This document shows positions 3 to 27,857 of a stretch of DNA of 27,987 nucleotides, piece after piece (the first letter of the stretch is position 1; every line of letters starts with the position of its first letter). The stretch covers positions 1 to 27,987 of IMG/VR virus record IMGVR_UViG_3300026076_000025. One strand, 5' to 3'. The notes under the pieces were generated by a model. The model worked only from the letters and a program-made list of their open reading frames with translations, was not told the origin of the DNA and searched no databases. The stretch is from a virus. A program made the translations under genes and the position numbers.

Positions 3-3000
3 GGTTTGAAAGCCACTGGTTTCAAATCAATGGTTATCGCTCAGTACACTGGTGTATCTCTACAGAAAGACGATAGAGCATTCATCAGATATGATGAGTA
101 CAGTAACACATTTAACCAAGCATCACTAGCAGACGCATTTGCTACTGTTCCATATCACACCAAAGGTGACGCATATTGGAAGGATGACTGGAGAAACTTC
201 CACGTTCGTGCTTCTGAAGACGCATTCATTCAGTGTGTTAGTATCTTTGCTGTTGGTTTTGCTGATCACTTCCTAATGGAAAGTGGTGGTGATATGAGTA
301 TCACCAACTCTAATAGTAACTTCGGTAATACATCACTACATGCTATAGGTCATAAAGGTTATGCCTATGCACAGGATAAAGGTGGATATATTACTGACAT
401 TGTTCCTCCTCAAGTGGTGGACACAACTACTGGAAATATCAAGAAGAATGCTTATTATACAATTGATATTCCAGCAACAAAAAATCTTAACACTGCATCA
501 GACCAGACTAAGATCTATCTTGGAGACGATGAAGGATACAATCCTGAGACACGTCTCGCTGCATCTATTGATGGATTCCGTATAGGTGCTAGGTCAGATG
601 AAAAGTTATATGTAAAATTAATTCCTAGAACTGCTGGAAGTAGTAATATTTTCAGTGCTACATTATCTCCAAATGGATTTAAGAAGTTTAATGCAACTGC
701 AAGTATTCTTAATCCTACTGGTATTACAATTAACAATAAGGATCTAGATGCTGCTGACCTTATTGAAGCAAACAAAGAGTTTATTGCTTACGAGGCATAC
801 GGATATATTACTAATAAGTATCCATACCTCTTAGATAGAGAAGGTATTGATATTGTTAAGTGTCGTCGTGACATTGGATACCTACTTGATGCTACTATTC
901 AGGATTTAAGACTTGGTGGTAACATCAATACTATTCAGTCTGCTGAATCATATTATGTTGGTAACAACCTATCATATATTACATCAGAACTTACTGAAAC
1001 TCTAGAGGGTTACGACTACGCTAGAGATCTTGCTATTGCATCCATACGTAACTTTACATATCTACGTACTGGATCAGAAACTGTTGCAGGAACTGCTATT
1101 GTTGACATTGGTGATACCAGTGGTGTTGTACAGGGTATGACAGTTGCTGACTATGATCCTAGTCAGTTCACAGATAACAAACTCAATTCTGGTGCTACAC
1201 GTCCTGCATCTCCAGTTATTCCAGATAACACATACGTTAAGCGTGTTGTATCATCAACAGAGATTGAACTTGGACAGAAAGCAACCTTCTCTACTAAGAA
1301 GGTAATCTCTGATCGTAATGGTGATGCTAGAAACCTATTACTTTCAAACAAATTATTCATTGCTGCTGAAGCATTTGACAGAATGGTGTTGGACTTCCCA
1401 TCCTACACTTCACCTCAAGGATATGGTCCACAGGATTGCAGAGATGACTTAGTTGATATTGTTGAAGCAATTGCTGAGAATACTGCTTATGGTGGTAACG
1501 ATGAAGTATGGGATGCTGCATATCACTATGATAGTGGTGCAGTTCAATATATTTCACAGAAGAAAGACGAGACTCTTCGTGCAATTGAATATGCCAGAGA
1601 TATGTCTGTGCAGATCATGCGTAATGAGAAGTCATTCATCTTCGGTAGTCATGGTCTAACTCAAACATATGATAATACTGTCACTTATGAACCACCTGAA
1701 GTGGTTAATGACAGAAATGGTGACGCACGTAATCTAATACTTGCTAACAAGCAATTGATTGCTGCTGAATCTGTAGAGAGAATGTTGGTTCGTTCTTCTA
1801 CTGCTGAGTATACACCAACTGATGCTGAGTATGATCCAGCAACAGGTGATTTGACTCTAGACATTGCTAGTCATGGTCTACTTGGTCCAACTGCAATTAC
1901 TGCATCTAGTGCATCATATGATCCTGAGACTGGTTGGTTGACTATTACATCTAATTCTCATGGATTAGCTGCTGGTAGTAAGGTTAAGATTGAAGATGAA
2001 TCATTGACATTGACATGTTCAATGGATAACAATGCTTCTACTCATGTATATCCTAGATCATCTGATCCTATTAGTGATAAGTGGATTGAAGTTGTTGAAG
2101 CAGATAACAATACATTCAGTGTTGATGTTGGTAAGTCTTTACTAATTGGACATGATGTAACTGCTGCTACATATGCACCTGCTACTGGTTTGTTAACTGC
2201 AACTATTCCAGGTCATGAGTTAAGTGAAGGACAGAATGTAAGAGTTGAAGATGGAGCATTCACATTTACATGTGATGAAGATAACCATGCTACACAACAT
2301 GTTTATCCACGTTCATCTGATCCAGCATATCAGAGTTCTGTTAAGATTGTAAGTAATGGATCCAAGCATACAGTTACTGGTGCTGGATATAATCCTGATA
2401 AAGGTACAATAGAATTTACTCTTGCTAATCATGGATTCTCTGATGGAGATAAGATTAGACTTGATGACGATTCATTAGTCTTTACTTGTGCAATGGATAA
2501 CAATGCTACTCAGCATTCATATCCACGTAAGAGTGATCCTATCAGTGGTAAGTGGGTTACTATTACAAATACATCCAACAATACTTTTGAAGCACACGTT
2601 GGAACTACTGGTGCAGTAACATATGATCTTACTAATGCTAACTATGATCCTGTAAGTGGTCAATTGACAGTTAGTGTTGATGGAAACCATGACATAGATG
2701 TTGGTGAGAATATTAGATTTGCTACTGATGCATTAACATTCACATGTGGTATGGACGGAAATGGTTCTAACCATACTTATCCTCGTGTAACTGACCCTGC
2801 ATATAACACTGGACTAGAAGTTATTGGTGTTGGTGGTGACTATGATATCACTAATGCTAACTACAATCCATCTACAGGTGTACTTGAGTTCACTGTTGCT
2901 AATCATGGATTGACAAATGGAGAACTTATCAAGATTGCTAAGAATTCTCTAACATTCACATGTGGTATGGATAGCAATGCTTCCGAGCATAAGTATCCAC

Positions 3001-6000
3001 GTGCAAGTGATCCTTATTCTGGTGATTGGTTATCTGTTTATGATGTAGCACAGAATTCATTTAAAGTTCAGATTGCAGATGCTGGATCTAACGTAGAGTT
3101 TACACCAACTGGTGCTACATATGACCCTGCAACTGGTGACTTAGAACTTACTGTTGGTCCTCATAACTTATCTGTTGGTGAAGGAATCGTCATGGATGAC
3201 GGTGCTATATCCTTTACTTGCACAATGGACAACAACCAAGTTGCTCAGTCATATCCACGTGCAAACTTAGATAAAGCTTCTGGAAGATCTCTTCCAATTA
3301 CCTCAGTTGATACAGGTAAGTTTACAATTAATGTAGGTTCTGCTGGTACTAATAAGAACTTAACTCCTACTGGTGCAACATATAATGAGAACAATGGTGA
3401 CATGGTTCTTACTGTTGGTCAGCATGGATTACGTGTTGGTACTGACATTACACTAAAAGATAATTCATTAACATTTACTTGTGATAAGGATGCTGGTGCT
3501 ACTCAGCATTCATATCCTAGACCTGGTACTGACCCTTATGCTGGTAAGTCAATTGCTATTACAGCAGTTGGTTCTACACAACATACAGCAACTAATGTTG
3601 CATACACACCTTCGAATGGTGTTATGGTTGTTACTGTTGCTAGTCATGGATTCTCACCAGGAGATTACATTCAGGTAGCAGATAATTCTATTACATTAAC
3701 ATGTGATCTAGATGGTAACGTAAGTCAGAAGACATATCCACGTACCAACTTTGATTCACTCAGCAACAGATGGGTAGAGATTCTATCAGCAACTACTGAT
3801 ACCTTTACTATTAATGTTGGTTCTTCTACTGACAATTCAGTACACACATTTGTTTCTGCTTCTGCTAATGGTATCTTAAAGCAAGACGGAACACTAACAA
3901 TTAATGTTGGTTTTGATGCTGATCCTGCTAACAGATATAACCACACATTTGTATCTGCTCTTACTGATGCTGTAGAATATAAGCCTCAGTCAGCACATAC
4001 ATTTGTATCTGCATTAACAAATTCAGTTAAGCATCTACCACAGTCTGCTCACACATTTAAGAGAGCAGCTCAACATGCTATCTCTAAGAGAGGTGGTGAC
4101 ATCACAGTTAATGTTGGTAAGTCTCCTATTGTAGAGTTCACACCAACTAATGCTACCTATGATCCTAACACAGGATTGATGGAATTGACTATTGGTGCTC
4201 ACAGTTTGACTGCTGGCACAAGCATTAAGATCGATGATGATGCTCTCAAGTTTACTTGTGAGATGGATGGTAATTATAGTACCAAGTCTTATCCTCGTTC
4301 AACTGATCCTGTACATGATACTTCTATTGAAATTACAGCAGCATCAGCTACAACTATTACTATTAATGTTGGTCAATCTCCAATAGTAAGTCACAATGTT
4401 GATGATGGTTCATACAACCCTGCAACAGGTGAGATGACCTTGAAGATTGGAAACCACAGTCTAACTGTTGGTGAGTCAATCAAGATTGATGATGGTGGTG
4501 TAACATTCAGTTGTACTTATGGTAATGTACCACATACCTTTATCACTGGTGCTACTAATGGTATCACTGATGATGGTAGTAATGACTGGACAGCAGCGTC
4601 TGGTACAACTTACGATCCTATCACAGGTGAACTGGTTCTTGAAGTTGGATCACACAGTTTAACTCCTGCTTCCACACATACAGTAACAGACGCAGTATAT
4701 AATGCTGCAACTGGTGCTATGGTTGTTACTATTGCTAATCATGGATTTAGTAATGGTGATAGAGTTAAATTTGCTGAAGGTTCTATATCACTTAACTGTG
4801 CTATGGACGGTAATGTTTCTACTAAGACATACCCACGTAGATCTGATCCTACATTCGGTAAGTGGTTACAAATTTCTAACGTTGCTACAGATACATTCTC
4901 AGTTAATGTTGGTTCATCTCCATTAGTACAGCATACACCTACAGGTGCTAACTATAATCCTACCACTGGTATAATGGAACTTACCATTGGTGCTCATAGT
5001 TTGACTGTTGGTACTGCTGTTAAGATTGCAGATAACTCTCTAACATTCACTTGTGCTGAAGATAATCACGCAACAACACATACCTATCCACGTACAACTG
5101 ATCCATTCTCTGACAAATCATTTGCTATTACAGATGTAACTGCTACAACAATTAGTGTTCAGGTATTGAGTACAATCCCATCTACTAATACTACAGCACA
5201 CCTATTTGTTTCTGCAACTAATAACTGTGTTACATCTGGTGGAAACTATGCACACACATTTGTATCAGCTACTGCTAGTGGTCTTAAGAAAGCAAATAAC
5301 ACAATTACATTTGCACAGGATGCATTAACATTCACTTGTGATGCTGACAACAATGCTACACAGCACACATATCCACGTGCTACTGACCCATTCCGTAATG
5401 AAACACTGGGTCTAGATTCTGTCACTGCAACAACAATGACAGTATTCGTTGGATTCTCTGTTGGTAGTCAGAGTGCTAAGTCTTATCCTAGACCTGATAC
5501 TGAAACACATACAGCTGCTGCTGGTACAACATATGATCCTACTACAGGTATATTAAGTGTAACAACTGCTGCTCATAACATTAAGAACGGTGACTATGTT
5601 AAGTTTGATACTGCTGCGTTCACCTTCACATGTATGGAGGATAACAATAATACTCAGCATACTTATCCTCGTGTAACTGATCCAGTAAGTACTAAGTGGT
5701 TGAAGGTTTCTAATGTAACTTCAACTACATTTGAAGTACAAGTATTGGATGTTATTCCTTCTACTAACGTAACTGCTCACTTGTTCGTAACTGGTAGCAC
5801 CAACGGTATTACTTCTAAGGTTGACAGATCATATGATCAGGCAATAGAAATTACTGGCGTTACTGCTGATACTATTACAGTTAATGTTGGACCTTCAAGC
5901 AAGACTACAGACGTACATACTTTCGTATCTGCACTAACAGGTGCTGTTAAGTCTGGTGGTGGTTATATTCATACCTTTAAATCTGCTGATGCAGGTGCTG

Positions 6001-9000
6001 TTAAGACAGGTGGTAACTATCTACATCAATTTGTATCTGCTACTGCTGGTGCTCTAATTTCTGGTGGTAACTATGCTCACATATTCCAGAGTGCTGTTGC
6101 CAATGGACTAACAAGATACAATGACACAGTAACCATAGATGTTGGTACATCATCTAATACTACTGCACATACATTCGTCAGTGCTATACCTAAAGCAATC
6201 ACCACTGGTGGTAACTACACACACTCATTCATATCTTCTAATCCAAATGGAATTAAGAAAGCAAATGATCGTGTAAGAATTGATTATGGTGCATTGACAT
6301 TTACCTGTGATATGGATAATCACGGTAGTCCTCATGCTTACCCACGTATTAGTGACCCTGCATATCAAGAGGATCTACCAGTTGCAGCATCATCTACTAA
6401 TCAGATAACTGTTAATATTGGTAAGACAACTCAAGGTAATCTTGATGTAAGTAACGCAGTTTATAATCCTTCTACTGGTGACATGACAGTCACAGTTGGA
6501 CCTCACAACTTAGAGAGAGGTCAGGACATTAAGATCATTGGTAACTCTATCAAGTTCTCATGTAATAAGGACAACAACGCAACAGATCATGCGTATCCTA
6601 GACCTACTGATCCTGCTGGAACTACATCACTACCAATTAAGGATGTTGGTTCTACCTATCATAGTTCAACAGATGCTTCTTATGATCCAGCAACAGGTGA
6701 ATTACTATTAGTAGTTGCTAATCATGGATTTAGTAATGGTGATAGAGTTAAGATTGCTGATGGATCTCTCACATTTACATGTGATATGGATAACAATGCT
6801 ACTGAGCATGCTTATCCAAGACTTAAGGATCCTGTTAATGGTAAGTGGTTGACAATTTCTGGTGTAACAACTGATTCATTCAAGGTTAATGTTGGTCAGG
6901 CTGGTGCATCACAATCATACACACCAACTGGTGCTGATTATCAACCTGCAACTGGTAACTTAGTCCTAACCATTCCTAATCATAATATTCCTAATGGTAA
7001 GAATATTACTATAGCACAGAACTCATTGAAGTTCCGTTGCACAATGGGTGATACTTCTGAGATTAAGACTTATCCTCGTTTAACTGATCCTATCTTCACT
7101 ACTGGGGCTACAGCACAGGCAGTTTCTGGTGATGAGTTAGTTATTCAGGTTGGTGCATCACCTCTAGTTACTCACACTCCAACAGGTGCATCTTTTGACC
7201 CTGTAACTGGTCTAATGACATTGATCATTGGTAACCATAATATCAGTGTTGGTGATTCTGTTAAACTTGCTGATGGTGCTGTAACCTTTACATGTGCTCA
7301 GGATAATAATGCTACTAACCATGCATATCCAAGAACAACAATTGATTCACATAATGTATCTGATGCTAGTTACAATCCTACTAGTGGTGTTCTTACATTA
7401 ACTGCTAATGCTCATGGTATTAAGCAGGGAGACTGGGTTAAGGTAGCAGATAATGCTCTAACCTTTACATGTGCTCAAGATAGTAATGCAACTAACCACA
7501 CATATCCACGTGCATCTGATCCTATCAGTAACAAGTGGGTTAAGGTTCTTGCTGTAACTACAGACACATTTGATATTCTAGTATTAGACTTTGCTCCATC
7601 TACTAACACTACTACACATGCATTTGTATCTGCTGTTAATGGTGGTGTTACTCAGAAGAGAGATAAGTCATATGATTCTCCTGTAAATGTTACTGCTATT
7701 GCTGCTGATTCAATCACACTTGATGTTGGTAAGTCTTCTGACACTACACAGCATCTATTTGTTTCAGGTCTTGCTGATTCTATAACCAGTGGTGGTAACT
7801 ACAGTCACACATTTATATCTGCTGATTATGGTGCTGTTACTGCTGATATTACAGAGAATAAGTTCACTCCAACAGGTGCTAACTATGACCCTGCTAGTGG
7901 AGATCTTACTCTAACAATCGGTTCACACTCTCTTGCAGTTGGTGATGGTATTACCATTGATGATAACTCATTGACATTCAAGTGTCAGATGGATGGTGAA
8001 CAGTCTGATAAATTATATCCACGACCAGCAAATAAATCTTTAACTGCTACAACTGGTACAACATACAATCCTACAACAGGTATTGTTTCTGTTACAACTA
8101 CAGTCAATCATGGACTGAAGAATGGTGACTTCATTAAGATGACTGATGGTGCATTAACATTCAGTTGTGGATTCAATGGAGCAACAGGTAGCAATGCAGA
8201 GAAATCATACCCACGTCCTAGTGATCCTGTAAGTGGTAAGTGGATTAAAGTTTCTAACGTAAGTGCAAACACATTTGAATTCCAGTGTCTTGCTGGTGTA
8301 CCTTCTACTAACACAGATGTACATTCATTTGTAAGTGGTGTTGCTAATGCAATTACACGTCAAACTGCAACTGATTGGTCTTCTTCTAGATCATTGAATA
8401 TTATCGGTAGAACTTCAAATACAATTACAGTTAATGTTGGTGGAGCTGGAGATAACCAGACATGGACTCCTAGTGCTGCTGATTACAACGCAACTACTGG
8501 TGAGATGATCCTTACCATTGGTCAGCATGGTCTTCGTGAAGGTGCAAACATTATCCTTAAAGATAATTCACTAACCTTTACATGTTCTAAAGATAATAAC
8601 ACATCTAATCATAGTTACCCACGTCCAGGAATTGATCCATTTGCAGGTGAGAAATCTATCACTATTAATGAGGTAGGTGCTACACTTCACAGCGTTGCTG
8701 GTGCTGGTTATGTTCCTGAGACAGGTGTCCTTTCATTGACTGTTAACAATCATGGATTTACTGAAGGAGATTATATCCTGATCCAAGATGGTTCACTGGT
8801 GATGACATGTGACCTTGACGGTAACACAGTTTCCAAAAATTATCCACGGGCAGGATTTGACTACCCAAGTTCAAGGTGGTTGAAGATCCAGAATGTAACA
8901 ACAAATGTATTTGATGTTAACGTAGGTATCTCTAGTGATACTAGCAATCATACATTTGTATCTGCTGTTGCTAATGGTCTTAAGAGACAGAATGGAACTA

Positions 9001-12000
9001 TCACAGTTAACATTGGTGCATCTCCTTTAACTAACTACACACCAACTAATGCTTCTTACAATGCATCTACTGGTGATATGATCCTTACCATTGGAGTTCA
9101 TGACTTACAAAATGGTGAGAAGATTAAGTTAGCATCTGATTCTATTACATTCACATGTACAAAGGATAGCAATGCAACTAACCACACATATCCTAGAGTT
9201 ACTGATCCAGCATATGATAGTGATCTAGAAATTAAGGATGCTACAACCACAACTATTACAGTTAATGTTGGTATTGGTGCTGTTGCTGATCAGTACGATC
9301 ATACATTTGTAAGTGCAACTACTAATGCTGTTATCTTTAATCAGAGATACACTCATACATTTGTAAGTGCAACTACTAACTCTGTACATTTTGAACCACA
9401 GTCACCACATACATTTGTAAGTGCTACTGCTAATTCTATCAAGCATTATCCTACTGCTGATCATACATTTGTAAGAGCAGTTGCTAATAATATTGAGAAA
9501 GAATCAGGAACATTCACAGTTAACGTTGGTGCTGCTGCTCTTGCTGATCAATATCCACATCAATTCAAGAGTGCATCTGCTGGTGCTATTCAAACTGGTG
9601 GTGCTTACTTCCATAAGTTTGTTAGTGCAGTAACTAATTCAATACACAAGGTATTCACAGTTGCTGGTAACCAACAGTATCATAATCAAGATTGTATTGA
9701 TGATGTTGTTGATCTACTAGAAGCAGTTGGTGATAACATTGCCTATGGTGGTAATGATAAGACATGGGATGCTGCTTATTCATATAAGACTGGTGCTCAT
9801 GTTGCTGGTGAGGAAGAAGAAACCAATTATGTATTTGAGCAAGCACGTGAGATGGCTGCTCAAGCACTTAGAAACCAGAAGATACTTGTTACTGGACATC
9901 ATGGTCTTGCACAGGTATTTGATAAGAGTATCACATTCAATGAAGTTAACCCTGCACCATCAAATAAATTTGCTGATGCACGTAACTTAGTTGTTGCTAA
10001 CAAACTACTCATTGCTGATGAAGCATATGCAAGAATGTTGGTTGATCATCCTGGATTTGTACCTCCAACAGGTAACCCACAGGATTGTAAGGATGACATC
10101 GTAGACTTCGTTGAAGAAGTTTCATACAACCTAGCATATGGTGGTAACGATAGAGTTTGGGAGATGACCGATCTCTATGTACAGGGTATGGTTGAAGAAG
10201 TTGCTGGAGAAGAAGCACAAACTATCCAAGCACTTAACCATGCACGTGATTTGATGATTCAAATCGGTAGGAATGAAAACATTGTAACTCTTGGTTCTCA
10301 TGGTAGAACACAGGTTAGAGATACTTCTATCACTCAAGATGTTGCTCCTCATGTAAGCAATAGACATGCTGATGCTAAAGATTTAATCTTGGCTAACGTT
10401 GCCTTTGCAGCAGAGATAGCACTAGGTAGAATGATTGATCAGTTCCCTTCATACACATGGGGTGCTGGTTATAGTTCTGCTGATTGTTTAGATGATCTTA
10501 AAGATGTAGTTCAGGTTGTTGCACACAACACAGGTTATGGTGGCAACCATAGAGTATATGATGCTGCTAACCTTTATGTTGCTGGTGCTCATGCTGCTGG
10601 ATCTGAAAGTGAAACTATCTTTGCATTCAATGCAGTACGTGACATCATCAAAGAGATTGCTACTAACGTAGATGTTACTGTTGGTGGTCACTCATCATTG
10701 AGTCAGGTTAAAGATACTTCTATCACTAATGGTGTTGCTAATGGAGATTGCAACGTTGTACTCAGTACTATTGATACTTTAGTTGCTATCCTAACATCTA
10801 CAATTACTACTCCATCATCACTCAAAGGTGTAACACGTACAGATTCTAATGGTCCTTGTGAGGACATGAGATCTGCTGTTGGTGTTCTTACTAAGATTGT
10901 AACTGATGCTATTGATGATCCTAGTACACTGTCTGGTAAGAAGCATTCAGTAACTGGATCAACTTATGATCCTACCTCTGGTGCATTAACACTTGAGATT
11001 GGTTCACATAGTTATACAAATGGAACCAGTGTACACATCGTTGATAACTCTCTAACATATACATGTGCTAGAGATAACAACGCAACAAATCATACTTATC
11101 CACGTCCAACCGATCCAGTTTCTACAAATGATCCTACCATTACTGGCACTACTGCTACCTCAATCACGGTTAATGTTGGTGTATCATCTGATATCTCAGC
11201 TCATACCTTCGTCAGTGCATCCGAAAAAATAGTAGTTGGTGGAGTTACAAGAACTCCTTCAGTCGGATCATGTGAGGATGTAAGATCAACACTTAATTCA
11301 CTATTCAAGATTGTTATTGATACAGTTGAAACACCAACATCTCTTGATAGTGTAACAAGAACCATTTCTAATGGTGCTTGTCAGACTGTTGCATCTACAA
11401 TCACAACACTATACCAGATAATCACTGGAACTATCAACTCTGCTAGTTACCTTGATTCTATCGAAAGGAACCCTGTTCCTCTTGGTCTAGAGTTTGGTCC
11501 TTCTATCAATGCTAACGCAACCAGTACTAACTCTTACTTGTACTTCCAGTTCGTTGATGGAGTATACACAACTCTTACTAGAACAGTTGATGATAGTATC
11601 ACACAGAATACAACGTATCCTCAGTGTGTTGATCAAGCAAATGCTATACGTCAGTACTTCTCTAACATTAGCACAATTATCCAGACTGGATTAGGAACTG
11701 TTCCACGTAGTGAACCGTCACAACTATCTACTGCGTTGTCATCTAGAGCAACAGTATTTACTTTGACTCAAGGTATTGGATCTAATCCACATGACCTTGA
11801 AACAGGTACACCAATTAGATTGGTTCCACGTCCACGTTATGATCAGGCAACCAGTTCTTATGTTGATGTTGATAAGCGTTTCGTTAGACTTCCTAATGGA
11901 TTCTCTACCAACCAGAAATACTATGTAATTGCTCCTGCAAGGAACACCAAGCCAGAGAATTATGGAACCTCCACTACATTCAATGGTACTGATCAAACTA

Positions 12001-15000
12001 AGATCATGCTTGCAAGCAGCAAAGAGAATGCTGCTGCTGGTATCTACTTACATTCTGCTGAAGTAGAAGATATACATCCAGACATAGAGATTGATCTATA
12101 TCAATTTGTTCTTGATGATAACTATGATCTACATCAATATGCTTGTGTACTTGATGGTATAAGCAACACTAACATCCGTACAGATGTTCCACACATCTTT
12201 GATGTTCCATTCTCTAACATTACTGGACACACAGTATTCTTTAGAGAAAGAGAAGGTGGTGCTCTACCTCTAGTTGGTGCAGCATATGCTAGTGATACTA
12301 CTGTTGCAGATGTTAATGGTAGACTGTTAGGTAACAAGTATTTCTATGCTAGGTATCAAACAGAGAAAGTCTTTACTATCCATAAGACTAAGACTGATGC
12401 AGAGAACGGTGTCAACCCAATAACATATCAACCAGGTACTTACGACTTTAATGTCTTCGCTAACAAGCGTGAAGCACCAATGAGGTATGACCCAACGTTT
12501 GTTAATCCTAATACTAGCCCAACAATATATGGTAAGTGGTATATTCAGGTTGAGAATGATAATGGCACAGAGCAAATCATCAAGAGACTTAGAGAGTATG
12601 CTGATGGTATTGACAAGACTAATGACTCTTGGTTCGAAAGGATTAAGGATGAGAGACCTGCTAATGATAGACTATATCGTCTACGTTATGTTATACCTCA
12701 GTACCTACAGTCTGTTAGAGATCCACTTAACGGATTTACTATCAAGACAAGGACTGACGAGACTAGAAGGTTAGTACCTCAGAAACTAATTCTTAAGCCT
12801 GTTTCTGGTAACGTAACTAAAGCACGTTTCTCTAACCCAGTACAGTCTAATGAGTACATTGGTTATACTAAGCAAGACTTCATTAACTTCAGTCTTAATG
12901 ATACTGTATCATACGATCCATATAAGAAGGATCTCGTAGGTAATACACAGTTTGCTAAGATTGTTACAACCCAGAACTATATCTCCATGACTATTCAGTC
13001 TGGTAGATATATTACTCAGGGTGCTGATGATTTCTTAGAACTAACTGTATTCGAACAAGGTGTTACTAATCCTGCATTAGTTACCACTAAGTTTAACACT
13101 GTTAAGATCACTGCACCTCAAGGTGGATCATTCGTTGCTAACAAGACTCAATCAGTAGCTGGTAACAGAATTGAATGGTCTGGTAATACATCTGGTTATG
13201 CTTATCTACATGCTATCCTACAGGTTCCAGGTACAACTACTTGGCACATGATCCTTAAGGATGTTGTTGGTAAGATTGACTATGATGCTATTGATAACAC
13301 AAGGTTCAGTCAGGGTACAGCATTCGCTGATCTACTTGCTGATGCTGACTTTGGTAAGTCATTGGTACTTAAAGATCTTATTAAGAAAGGTTATCCTGAA
13401 TTATATTACAGACAGAATGGTGCTGGTGTTTATACTATCACACCAGGTGATATTATTGAAGACGATGCAAGCATCCAATACTATGTTGAATCAGTAGAAG
13501 ATGTTGGTCAGATTGATGACAACTTCTATGTGTTTAACACACAAGAGATTCAGAAACGTATCTATGGTCAGCAAGATGGTATCTACTATCTAACTGCTGT
13601 TCGTGGTAACATTTCACCACTACCTCAAGGTGCTGGTAACTTAGGTAACTTCAGGAACTTCAAGTTCTCCCAGCCTATCAGCAAACTATATCCATTAAAC
13701 TATAAGAACGATCCTCTCTGGTATCAGCAGTTGGATGCAACATTAGTTGATCCACCTCAGACATATTCTGCTGCTGATAACTATGTTCATGGTCTTGTAA
13801 GAGTTAATGACTTCAAGGGTTCACTAACTCAAGAGGGTATCATTGATCTGATTAATAACAATGCATTCGGATCTAATACTTATACACAAGTATCATCCTC
13901 TATTGATAATAGAATCAGAGCACAGAAGGGTAACGCTGCTTCTGGATCTGAAGACAGATTGATTCCTATCGCTGGTGACAGTACAGTCCGAACAGATCAA
14001 CGATACTACGTTGAACTTCGAAGACCATCTATCGCAAGAGCTGGTAACCACACATTTGAATATCTTGGTTTTGGTCCAGGTAACTACTCAACTGGTCTAC
14101 CTCAACGTCAAGAGGTTGTACTCACAGAGATACAAGACTTCTATGCTCAGTCTAAGAAGCAGAATGGTGGTCTAGTATTCTACACTGGTCTTAACTCAAA
14201 TGGTGACCTATACATTGGTAACCGTAAGATTGATGCTATCACTGGTGAAGAAGTATTCCTTGAGTCTGCAACATTACAAGATTCTGATGATGATGACGAG
14301 ACACTAGGTAATCTAGTTACTACGTTTGATACTCCTGTTACATTTAATGAGTACATCACTGTTAATGGTGGTGAAGCTCAGGATAAGAGAAGTACATTCA
14401 ACTCACCAGTTCTAATTAACGTTCTTGGAACTGTTAGAAACAACCCTGCGTTGGTAATTTCTTCCTTCGTTGATCCTGCTATCGATGATGGTTCTCTTGA
14501 TAGATCAGCATTCGTCAGAAATGTCGAAACTGGTGGTGATGTTGTCATTGCTAGGAATAAAATTTCCGCAGCAATTTTCCAGTTCAATAGTCGCAGAGAT
14601 GGTCAGGATTATAAGATCCAGACACATGTCGTAGGTGCTTCACCTTCTAACATTACTCCTGATCAAACTGGTGCATTTAATGCAAGTCAGATTGTTGCTT
14701 ACGGTAATGCTGGTGCTCCTAAGTCTGGTGACTTCCTACTTAAAGGTGGAAGCATTGGTAAGACTGGATCACTTGGTTGGATCTACTCTAACTACTACAC
14801 CATAATTGGTAACACTGTTCCTGAATCATTCGCATTCAATAACACTAACGTTATCACAGTTACATGGGCTACATTAACTAACCAACAACTTGGTATCACA
14901 TCATCCTCTGAAATTAGAATCAGTGGATTCTCTGATAGTGACTTTGATGGTACATGGCAGGTTATATCAAATGGATTTAACCCTGCTTCCAATACATTAC

Positions 15001-18000
15001 AGATTGCTATCGGTGCAACTAAGAACACTGTTAACAATCAGAACCCAAGAATGTGGTCTGATGAAGTTGCAGCTAATGCTAACATTAGACTTGAGTACTC
15101 TAACTCCAACTGGAAAGAGTGGGGTGTTATTGGTGCTGAAGCACTTAGAACAGAGACTGATGCTATTGGTGATTACAAACTTGGTGTTAACACAGTTGGT
15201 AGATCTGATAAGGCATCCTTCGAAACAAACTTCGTTGATGCTAAGACAGAACCACGTGCTAACTTAGATGTTGTTGGTACTGCATTCATTAGTGGTAAGA
15301 AGATCACTGATTATGCATCACATAACACAGATGCTACTAGAACATATCAGGATCGTACTGATGCACTCATGGTTGGTGGAGATTCTGCCACACCAGAGAA
15401 TGAAGCAACCTTACGTGTTTCTACTGCTAACGGTGGACGTGTTGGTATTAATGTAACTAACACTGAACTTGATAGAGCACTGGTTGTTGATGGTACATCT
15501 AGATTCACTGATGATGCTAAGTTCGAAGAGGACATTGAAATCAACGGTGGTGGTGGAACTAATACTGCACAGGTTAGAACTACTATTACTACAGGTACTA
15601 TTGAGTTCTTCCCAACTCTATTCGAAGGAACATTAGACTTTGCACCTCTTGCAACTACAGTTCATGTTGCTAATGACAGCACTGCTGATCAATTCATTCG
15701 TGTAGGTAATGCTTCACTCCATAGTAATATATGGGTTGGTGCTACTCCTGATACTTCCACCAATATTTCTAAGATAGAGATAGGTGGTGCTTATAATAAT
15801 AACGAATCATTATCATTCACACTTATAGGTACTAAGTCATTCAAGACTAAGGGAGACTTCCAGTTAGGCACAGCTAGAGGACTACTTGACACTGTTAAGT
15901 TAACCTCTACTGCTGGAACTGTTGAGTTCTTCTCTGGTAGTTCTGCTACATCTAAACTTGACTTTGCTACCAACGCTGCTGAGATCACAATCGCTGGTAA
16001 GGGTGGTACTACAACAATTAGAAACAACCTAGTCGTTGATTCTAGTGCTAGATTTAACTCTGACATCACACTCTGTGGTGGATTTGCTTCCTACTCATTC
16101 ACAGCATATAGATCACAAATTGGATCTACTGCATTCGCTCATGCTAGTGGAGATCTTGGTAACAATGTATTCAACAGTAATGTTGATCTGATTGATGTAC
16201 TAAGAGTTGCAAATACTTCTGATGTATACAACGCAGTTGATACAGCTGGTACTGGTGATTGGGGTGGAACAGTATTCCAGAATCAAATTACACAGATTGC
16301 TGGAACTGTTGAACCTCTAACTCTACCAGCTCTAACTGGTGAACAGTATTACTTACCACTTAAGAACCGTCCGTTCGATAACAATGGTTCTCAATATATT
16401 AGTGAGCAAGATATACTACTCATTGATACTGATGACAGTGGTAACAGACATCCAGAATTTGTAAGGGTTGTTTCTCTTCCAAGAATCAACGTTGCACCTT
16501 ACTGGATCGTAGTTGAAAGACTACCATTTGGTACATACACTGCCAAGAGATCTGATCATCCAGATACTACTGCTATCTACAAATGTATCGTTCAGTACAA
16601 TGCTACTTGGACAACTACAACAATAGATGACACAGGTGCTGAAGAGAATGTATACCTATCACAGTTCGGTGGATCTATCGCAATCGGTGATTATGTAATC
16701 ATTGATCGTGAAGATACTACTAGCCCTGCTAATGGTGTATTTGATCAGGGTGAGATGTTTAAGGTTAAGGCTCTCCTATCTCAGATTGCTAAGAAACTAT
16801 CCATCAAGAATGGTTGTGATACTGCTAATGAGGTAACAGTCTTTGAAGTTGATTCAACAACTGGTAACACATTAATCGGTACAGGTGGACAGACAACAAT
16901 CAGTGGTACATTGAGTATCGATGGTACATGTGCTACACCTTATACTAACTCTACTTCTAACAAGAAGTTAACTATAACAAATGGTTCCGACATTACAACC
17001 TTCGAGGTTGACACTTGTACAGGTGACACAACTGTTGGTAACCATCATGGTACAGTCTTCATGCTTTCTGAGCAGTTTGGTACATCACCTGCTGCATACA
17101 CTAAGGGTGTTGATGCTGTACATGTTTACAGACATAACCCAATGTCTGTTATCTCTGGTGGTCCTGCATCAACAATTGCTGACGCTGTTGTTCCTGCAAC
17201 ATCTAACATTGAGATACAAGGTAACTTAACATCATTCACTAAGGGTGATTTGGTTGCAATCTATACTGTCAATGCCATTGAGATTATTCAGATTACTGAT
17301 GATCCTTATACTGGTGCTGGTGGTGAATTGATTCTACCAACATCATCTAATGCTGAATATGCTAACGGTGGTCGTGCAATGGAAGACACCACTGCTCTAT
17401 CATTCTCTATCGGTGCTAACGTTGTTAAGTTAGACAAGTATGATAGGACTACCACACTCCTACATGACGTGGCTGCTACTCAAGCAGACAGAGCAACAGA
17501 TCTCAAGGCAAGAACACCTAACCAAAGTGATATCAGATTAGAGATCTCACTCAGGGATGCTGATTTAATTGCTCCTAAACTTGATTATGTAACTCTTGTA
17601 AGAATAGGAACTGAATTCTTCGTACCTGATTCTGTTGATGGAACACTTGATGCATTCTATGCAATCAAGATGCCTAAGCAGATTAGAGAACCTAACGTAG
17701 TTGGTACTACACCAGTCAAACTATTTGGTGGTGGATCTACAACTATCAATCAGGATCTTGAGGTCATGAGTGGTAATATCAGAATGTATGGTTCTGATGG
17801 TAAGACACTCGTTATGTCCATCGCTAACGATGATGGTCACTCAGGTGATGGTTCACTAGAAGATCCTAAGACAGATACTGCTGGCATGACACTTAAGGGT
17901 GCTGCTGCATTCTATGGTGATCTTAAGGTCTACTATGATAACTGTCAGATGCATGGAGTCTGTTCAACAGAGACTTCATTCAGAGTTACCAACAGAGAAG

Positions 18001-26731: not shown

Positions 26732-26928
26732 AGAAGTTAGAAAACTCTTATCTATTAGAAGATAAGTTTATGATGCCAGGTATATGTGTTAAAGAACCGT
26801 ATGGTGAATGGGCTGCTGTCCCTATCATGGGTAAACACAACAGATACATGGTTATACACAATGGAGAAATGATCAAGGCATGTAATTATACCACTGCCTA
26901 TAACTTTATAATGAAACAGTATTCATGA
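26704..26928 (+). CDS. hypothetical small basic protein (74 aa)
   Basis: Not recognised. It has a basic N-terminus (MAKRSRPQLEKLENSYLLED), then a compact beta-like core with GEWAAVPIMGKHNRYMVIHN and a final Tyr-rich helix ending NFIMKQYS. The ATG at 26704 lies inside the previous gene (28-base overlap) and its TGA overlaps the methyltransferase ATG as ATGA (26925-26928). Conserved overlaps on both sides support it as a real gene despite its small size. Confidence 0.65.
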   Translation: MAKRSRPQLEKLENSYLLEDKFMMPGICVKEPYGEWAAVPIMGKHNRYMVIHNGEMIKACNYTTAYNFIMKQYS

Positions 26929-27857
26929 AGGATTACATTTTATTTGGTGACTGTCTTGACTCACTCAAGATAATTGCGAATGAACAAGAGAAGGCACGTA
27001 TGTGTGTCACATCTCCACCTTACTATGGTTTGAGAAACTATGGTGATGAAGAGAAACAGTTAGGACAGGAACAAAGTCCTGAAGAATACATTGAAAATAT
27101 GGTTAAGGTCTTTCGTTTAGTAAGAGATTGTCTTACTGATGATGGCACACTATGGTTGAACATAGGTGATTCATATTATAATTACAGAAAAGATGGATGT
27201 ATACCTAAACAGACATTCTCTAATAATAGACAAGACTTACCTGAAACTACACCACGTAGATCTAATAAACTTGTAGGATACAAAGATAAAGATCTTATTG
27301 GTATACCTTGGATGCTTGCATTTGCACTACGTGCTGATGGTTGGTATCTAAGGCAAGATATTATATGGCATAAACCAAATCCAATGCCAGAGTCAGTTAG
27401 AGATCGTTGTACTAAAGCACACGAGTACATATTTCTATTAAGTAAGAGTAAATACTATCACTATGACAACGAAGCAATCAAAGAACCAGCAAAAGACTGG
27501 GGAACAAGAGACAGAACAAATGGAAAGTACCACAATCCAGGAACAGGACTGCAACCGCATACAGGTCTTACAAAATCATATACAAAACGCAATAAACGAT
27601 CTGTCTGGTCAGTAAATAAGAAACCATACAAGGGTGCTCACTTCGCAACATATCCAGAAGAACTCATTGAACCATGTATTCTTGCTGGTAGTGAGAAGGG
27701 TGATATAATATTAGATCCTTTCATGGGTAGTGGCACTACCGCATTTGTTGCTAAGAAACATAGTAGAGCATACATTGGGTGTGAATTGCACAAGGAGTAT
27801 GACAGTTTAATAACTGACCGTATTCGCACCATTCCAAACAAATTACCGTTATACTAA
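26925..27857 (+). CDS. site-specific DNA methyltransferase, class beta amino-MTase (310 aa)
   Basis: Predicted to transfer a methyl group from S-adenosylmethionine to the exocyclic amino group of adenine (N6) or cytosine (N4). Motif IV TSPPYYG is at residues 29-35, near the N-terminus, and the SAM-binding motif I region DPFMGSGTT at 264-272, near the C-terminus. Motif IV before motif I is the beta-class order. Between them lie GTLWLNIGDSYYN, IPWMLAFALRADGWYLRQDI with IWHKPNPMPESV, and a probable target-recognition segment. SPPY is frequent in N4-cytosine enzymes but does not by itself settle the base. All core motifs seem intact and the length is usual for stand-alone enzymes. No restriction endonuclease gene is visible, so it is probably an orphan phage methyltransferase for protection or regulation. 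The start overlaps the previous stop as ATGA. Confidence 0.9.
   Translation: MKDYILFGDCLDSLKIIANEQEKARMCVTSPPYYGLRNYGDEEKQLGQEQSPEEYIENMVKVFRLVRDCLTDDGTLWLNIGDSYYNYRKDGCIPKQTFSNNRQDLPETTPRRSNKLVGYKDKDLIGIPWMLAFALRADGWYLRQDIIWHKPNPMPESVRDRCTKAHEYIFLLSKSKYYHYDNEAIKEPAKDWGTRDRTNGKYHNPGTGLQPHTGLTKSYTKRNKRSVWSVNKKPYKGAHFATYPEELIEPCILAGSEKGDIILDPFMGSGTTAFVAKKHSRAYIGCELHKEYDSLITDRIRTIPNKLPLY

Follow-up and report, generated by a model that had tools for sequence, protein, structure and literature searches.

The analysis of the giant tail-fibre gene of a marine T4-like cyanophage revealed a unit of about 100 residues inserted in the join of two helical repeats. This unit is probably a domain cassette carried by recombination and not a dedicated mobile element. 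The same place is filled in some alleles and empty in others and has changed state repeatedly, the unit and its flanks have conflicting histories, and one allele is a mosaic. A second loop and another tail gene also hold related units, and near-identical backgrounds carry one unit or several.

The window, as the whole stretch of DNA analysed is called here, is the 27,987-base virus record IMGVR_UViG_3300026076_000025 (positions 1-27,987). It is dominated by a single reading frame of at least 6,213 codons (Table 1). Residues 1-2666 of the encoded protein match phrog_5342, 4527, 18802 and 701, which are cyanophage tail-fibre and virion-structural families, and its homologues are giant tail-fibre proteins of named Kyanoviridae. 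The gene is that of a tail-fibre protein of a T4-like marine cyanophage. Three collar-domain proteins, a tail assembly chaperone-like protein and a DNA methylase are encoded 3′ of it; the methylase gene lies downstream of the tail genes at 26925-27857 (N6_N4_Mtase, E 5e-57). The giant protein contains helical repeats A (about 130 residues) and B (36 residues) and the probably beta-rich YPR/HTFVSA unit, in which an 81-residue core (YDPxTG ... C ... YPR ...) is followed by an HTFVSA tail.

Table 1. Positions of the giant gene, the units and the insertion sites (window coordinates unless a locus is given)
Feature	Position	Strand	Description and basis
Giant cyanophage tail-fibre/virion structural protein	3..18644	+	ORF open throughout; 5′ end outside window
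Array region, residues 603-3092	1809..9278	+	29 YPR-core HMM matches (some partial); HMM
Site 2, empty in window	9747..9809	+	GGNDKTWDAAYSYKTGAHVAG, then EEEETN; loop of repeat A
Helical repeat B1 (C...SSLKGVTRT), uninterrupted	10749..10856	+	alignment (C29)
Helical repeat B2, first part, ends DDPSTLS	10857..10934	+	B2-B3 join split by unit; alignment (C65)
Solitary YPR/HTFVSA unit (site 1), residues 3645-3746	10935..11240	+	exactly 102 codons
81-residue unit core, residues 3648-3728	10944..11186	+	HMM match; AlphaFold2-predicted beta domain, pLDDT mostly 80-93
HTFVSA tail of unit	11187..11240	+	ends I-V-V-G; next residue G
Remainder of B2-B3 join, GVTRTPSVGS	11241..11270	+	directly 3′ of unit; sequence
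Helical repeat B3 (C...TSLDSVTRT), uninterrupted	11271..11378	+	alignment (C203)
1,369-aa ORF of a different tail gene (site 3)	L184:1750-5856		unit between DNTA and RSNKT

An earlier note on this DNA had described a complete unit of about 102 codons that splits DDPSTLS from GVTRT. Its coordinates proved exact, the frame is open, and the neighbouring joins are intact, reading TPSSLKGVTRT between B1 and B2 and TPTSLDSVTRT between B3 and B4. The unit at this join (site 1) reads G-KKHSVTGSTYDP...YPR...HTFVSASEKIVVG, with DDPSTLS on the left and GVTRT on the right. An HMM grown from it gave 30 matches in the window protein, namely 29 in the array region and the site-1 unit, which scores E = 1e-33 over its core against this HMM of its own making. 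Judged by these profile matches, the likeness of the site-1 unit to the array units is far beyond chance. The unit carries the signature of the YPR-unit family (core HMM match, YDP..TG, C, YPR and an HTFVSA-type tail) and matches phrog_1276 with E 5e-16; the family as delimited by our HMM overlaps phrog_1276, 701, 5342 and 18802.

Homologues both with and without the unit, which the earlier note had suggested looking for, were found. A scan of IMG/VR yielded 78 loci, and 30 of these (L001-L030) align across both flanks of site 1; the other 48 (L031-L078) do not align over both flanks and were left out. Of the 30, sixteen carry a single unit, L017 carries two, and 13 are empty. The set grew to 110 rows through a second scan, made with a right-flank profile, and 73 distinct alleles remained after 37 rows identical over 164 codons had been merged; L182 does not reach site 1 and was left out. 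Site 1 is filled in 23 of the 73 alleles and empty in 50, the filled set comprising 22 rule-assigned alleles (20 single, 2 double) plus L175, which the rule missed and which was added by hand. Five pairs of filled and empty alleles have flanks 87-94% identical in nucleotides, which is the presence/absence looked for in a promiscuous domain: L167/L165 (left flank 94%, right flank 91%), L007/L018 (91 and 93%), L014/L025 (89 and 89%), L011/L026 (89 and 91%) and L161/L148 (87 and 91%; immediately to the right of the insert, 35 of 36 bases agree). Of the 17 named-phage loci, none aligns well over both site-1 flanks, so the insertion/deletion at this site is known here from uncultured records only.

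Site 1 spans 316 residues in L175 and 105 in L174, with flanks 94-97% identical in nucleotides. The solitary unit has apparently been expanded in place in L175 to several cores with the same edges, and this is possibly the birth of an array.

The flank tree of all 73 rows (quick search, unit excluded) requires at least 11 changes of state, 10 of them forced by well-supported branches. On a careful 31-row flank tree there are seven changes, six of them forced, and grouping of the empty alleles as one clade is rejected (p-AU 0.0014). Gain and loss at site 1 are indistinguishable on these trees: a history of one old gain and 12 losses is hardly more costly than the minimum of 11. The observations could therefore be read as an old insertion with repeated deletion, that is, a single ancient entry and many losses, the conflict between unit and flank trees being due to fast evolution and noise. 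Such a history agrees with the position of the empty alleles L018, L019 and L023 inside a filled clade and with the fact that one origin of all 26 site-1 units in the unit tree was not rejected (p-AU 0.14). We nevertheless regard it as unlikely. The conflict between unit and flank trees exceeds, by deltaL, that of all 11 flank windows tested alongside, the mosaic allele L014 suggests transfer, and related units are found in a second loop and a second gene.

The main comparison of the two histories was performed with 17 of the 20 single-unit alleles (all except L006, L013 and L163). Each tree was rejected by the other data set, the flank tree by the unit data (p-AU 2.2e-4) and the unit tree by the flank data (p-AU 7.9e-9); with smaller sets the unit data gave p 0.0011 for eight taxa and p 0.0035 for nine taxa including L013. 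As a control, 11 flank windows of equal width were each tested against the remaining flanks with the same eight taxa. The deltaL was 44.2 for the unit (p 0.0016) versus 1.8-22.6 for the flank windows, five of which rejected the tree of the rest of the flanks at p<0.05, the lowest p of 0.0023 being near the 0.0016 of the unit. The unit is the most discordant piece of the gene by deltaL and is not set apart by p. Judged from these tests the giant gene recombines generally, which weakens, without removing it, the independent history found for the unit.

The mosaic allele is L014, whose flanks are 89% identical in nucleotides to those of the empty allele L025. The L014 unit shares 91% nucleotide identity with the unit of L015, although the flanks of these two alleles are only 83-84% identical. 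Positions separating L015/L016 from L025 were used as diagnostic sites. To the left of the unit, all four sites between -1 and -20 are donor-like and those at -25 and -31 are L025-like; to the right, all eight between 0 and +16 are donor-like and those from +21 to +57 are L025-like. Immediately next to the unit, the diagnostic sites depend in part on the filled state, through the glycine codons; further out they are mixed, with other donor-like runs. This pattern suggests a donor-like cassette with an edge of about 20 nt set in the background of another lineage, and it looks like one transfer.

Units are not confined to site 1. The site-2 loop, which reads SYKTGAHVAG / EEEETN in the window, is in view in 50 of the 73 alleles; it is filled in four (L015, L016, L155 and L175) and empty in 46. 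L167 is filled at site 2 as well, its unit being cut by the contig end, and all five of these alleles are also filled at site 1. Site 3, in the different tail gene, belongs to a set of 77 loci, the first 42 of which were counted (L227-L261, 35 loci, lie outside the count). Among the 41 readable loci 14 are filled and 27 empty; these figures include repeats, as one filled and seven empty rows duplicate another row, and L210 is cut. The isolate S-CAM1 has no unit at site 3 and reads straight through (KYDGTGTPSNKSIVFDSW), and S-CAM3 is empty there too by match lengths. The unit thus occurs in different protein contexts, two helical-repeat loops and another tail gene, as is looked for in a promiscuous domain. 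Overall, the in-frame cassette behaviour proposed in the earlier note is borne out by presence and absence at the same place, by related units in other contexts and by a history in conflict with that of the flanks.

The junctions were then considered as possible traces of a dedicated mobile protein cassette, in which the DNA ends of the unit would be recognised by a recombinase or homing activity and inserted in frame into loops. The edges are indeed constant. In the window GGT is both the first and the last codon of the unit and GGA follows; glycine is the first, last and next residue in 18 of 18 filled rows in which the left edge was set by flank alignment (the window and 17 loci). Glycine edges are found in all 23 filled alleles, where only the right-edge count is independent, the left edge having been sought at a glycine. 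The edge pattern G-x-x-x-x-V ... G-G is common to site-1 and site-2 units, and three different insertion contexts are known. The glycine codons noticed earlier at both edges are thus real; their interpretation as a short junction duplication failed. Edge-similarity scores gave no signal of a target-site duplication at the site-1 junctions: left and right edges had a mean score of 3.96, with -4 in the window (left GKKHSV, right GVTRTP). Left edges from site 2, which is another target, scored 7.98 on average against site-1 right edges. The glycines are no target duplication, because left edges from a different target resemble the site-1 right edges even more. Candidate duplications in L013, L017, L155 and L167/L168/L174/L175 (GVNRT/GIIRT, GIYRTVSS/GVGRTVSS) were rejected, as the site-2 left-edge control scored higher. 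An argument from the lack of glycine at empty junctions held in the first 13 empty alleles; it was dropped because glycine is present at the junction in 9 of all 50.

Further points speak against a dedicated element. No integrase, transposase or endonuclease was identified by Pfam in the scanned window proteins, a scan that covered little of the array stretch, and all 102 codons of the unit encode the structural unit itself. Units at site 3 have other ends (FTPT ... FDN), and short-tract recombination suffices for L014. We consider a dedicated cassette improbable.

The array region was the donor favoured in the earlier note. It in turn interrupts a different helical repeat at a loop (ERMLVRSSTA / NQDCIDDVVDLLEAV). 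Phylogenetic analysis by quick search included 107 units, among them 26 from site 1, four from site 2 and 44 array rows. One clade (SH-aLRT 95) holds 20 of the 26 site-1 units, all four sampled site-2 units and none of the 44 array rows, which argues against the array as a recent donor. Site-2 units nest among site-1 units (support 90), and a site-1 clade without site 2 was not rejected (p-AU 0.30). Forcing the L013 unit into the solitary clade raised the likelihood above that of the free tree, so the quick tree is not the best tree. The core of the window unit is 74-90% identical to same-site cores of close relatives and reaches at most 58.8% identity with the 27 own-array cores compared. The earlier note had named two outcomes that would speak against a second entry: a tree that places the unit as the deepest lineage with no related array unit, and presence of the unit at this place in all homologues. 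As to the first, the unit has no near relative in the array; as to the second, not every homologue carries it. That the unit is a copy ejected from the array of the window by unequal recombination is very improbable, despite the shared domain family and protein: these identities and the clade devoid of array rows refute it as a recent event. The unit may have an old origin in the array.

Array-type copies may reach site 1 elsewhere. The second site-1 unit of L017 is 65% identical to the last array core of the window and 67-68% identical to those in the arrays of three relatives. Both double inserts, in L017 and L155, resemble array units, and the placement of L013 in the tree is uncertain. Independent entries through L013, L017 and L155 were considered and dropped, as the AU tests did not reject a single origin.

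Relatives vary in how many cores they have in the array, which lies at 1809-9278 in the window. Two 54-base tandem repeats of 2.5 copies each are present at 5938-6074 and 9299-9434 of the window, and the latter encodes repeated HTFVSA-type tails without a core.

AlphaFold2 predicted the unit as a ten-strand beta domain, with pLDDT values by tens mostly of 80-93 and one block of 69. Models of the helical flanks were poor (pLDDT 51, low confidence in both runs) and were not used as evidence. Pfam gave no family for the window core and none significant for 30 diverse units (best E 0.029); the Ig-type models C2-set (E 0.075) and TIG (E 0.032) each appeared in one of the 30 members and were not significant. 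Foldseek returned nothing at E<=0.001 for the predicted unit. Its best structural likenesses were to beta-barrel regions of phage endosialidases (3ju4 and 1v0e, residues 424-505; 4hiz, residues 255-339) with Z 6.8-7.3 and rmsd 2.1-2.4 A over 76-79 residues, to the first catalytic cysteine half-domain (FCCH) of UBA1/UBA6 with Z 5.4-6.9, and to a phage N4 tail protein, all at Z <8, which according to the tool is common for unrelated folds, and at 6-16% identity. Both the endosialidase barrel regions and FCCH are inserted barrels; the predicted unit resembles the endosialidase barrels and the E1 FCCH at a level that does not establish kinship. Sequence searches of the PDB gave weak scattered matches, with a best E of 0.095 for the region and, for the unit profile, of 0.0023 for a single carbonic anhydrase matched along 41 positions. 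By these searches the domain is without a Pfam family and without a convincing relative among solved structures.

The unit is best filed as a promiscuous domain of phage proteins, a known kind, and literature searches that included its peptide motifs found no description of the domain itself. Fraser and co-workers reportedly described in 2006 small beta Ig-like domains added in frame to many tailed-phage virion proteins, and these are said to aid surface contact, a likeness to the YPR unit. The YPR units differ from them in having no significant Pfam family, in occupying the joins of a helical-repeat fibre and in occurring also in long arrays. We infer that the unit is a surface module of the fibre, for which contact with a glycan or receptor is more likely than a role as a mere spacer. 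Among the giant cyanophage tail-fibre proteins homologous to the window protein is S-PM2d218 (T4-LIKE GC 734) of S-PM2, which mutated during coexistence of S-PM2 with its Synechococcus host (PMC9910659). The accessible parts of PMC3037559 and PMC6224464 contain nothing on this gene. Recent mosaicism in phage receptor-binding proteins, including tail fibres and tail spikes, has been described (Smug et al. 2023, PMC10684548); the cyanophage case differs from it, as far as the accessible text of that study goes, in that its main text nowhere uses the word 'cyanophage' and no case of a domain inserted repeatedly at the same place is described.

Taken as a recombination-borne cassette, the unit would be an insertion/deletion polymorphism at the point where two helical repeats join and would be spread and lost through ordinary phage recombination, with no activity of its own. 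Crossovers would fall in the conserved repeats that flank the unit and leave short tracts. The phages involved appear to carry a RecA-like recombinase: a RecA-family gene is present in the records of two of three relatives, and gp23 in all three. The domain would be tolerated as its ends would lie close together in a loop. Exposed at the surface, it may serve as decoration or as a receptor- or glycan-contact module whose presence and number would be varied in the contest with the surfaces of Synechococcus and Prochlorococcus. Unit swaps between viral lineages may in this way alter virus-host contact.

More widely, and only tentatively, the domain cassette may circulate within and between tail genes of marine T4-like cyanophages much as a small gene cassette does between genomes. 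One lineage with conserved edges would have settled in two or more loops of the giant fibre and may seed local arrays, giving 0 to 30 matches in genome-sized records and a combinatorial host-contact coat without a reverse-transcriptase or invertase system. Domain insertion in phage tails has often been inferred from distant comparisons. Here it is visible among close natural relatives: alleles of the same place are empty or filled, one allele is a mosaic, related units sit in a second loop and in a second gene, and one site holds one unit or several. How an inserted domain arose and what it does become testable questions, with S-CAM1 empty at site 3 and other isolates carrying related units.

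Unit sequences were detected in 290 phage records, all named as Synechococcus, Prochlorococcus, cyanophage or marine-virus. A search of bacterial genomes with a single-protein query, which is a weak test, gave no related stretch among 188 candidates. In the window, the first 78 loci and the 17 named-phage loci taken together, the HMM counted 951 units, grouped in 163 runs and spread over many loops; many of these loci are overlapping or near-identical. The record of 192.8 kb that holds L154 contains site 1 and gp23, its completeness is not stated, and it has no unit match; the 202.5 kb record that holds L005 has 30, of which 29 lie in the giant ORF and the other lies in the 1,369-aa tail-protein ORF. 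These two related T4-like records, with 0 versus 30 YPR-unit matches, share the giant fibre gene. In L032, L034, L046 and L053 an HTFVSA-type stretch precedes the core, and the same repeat seems to have been inserted there in a permuted register.
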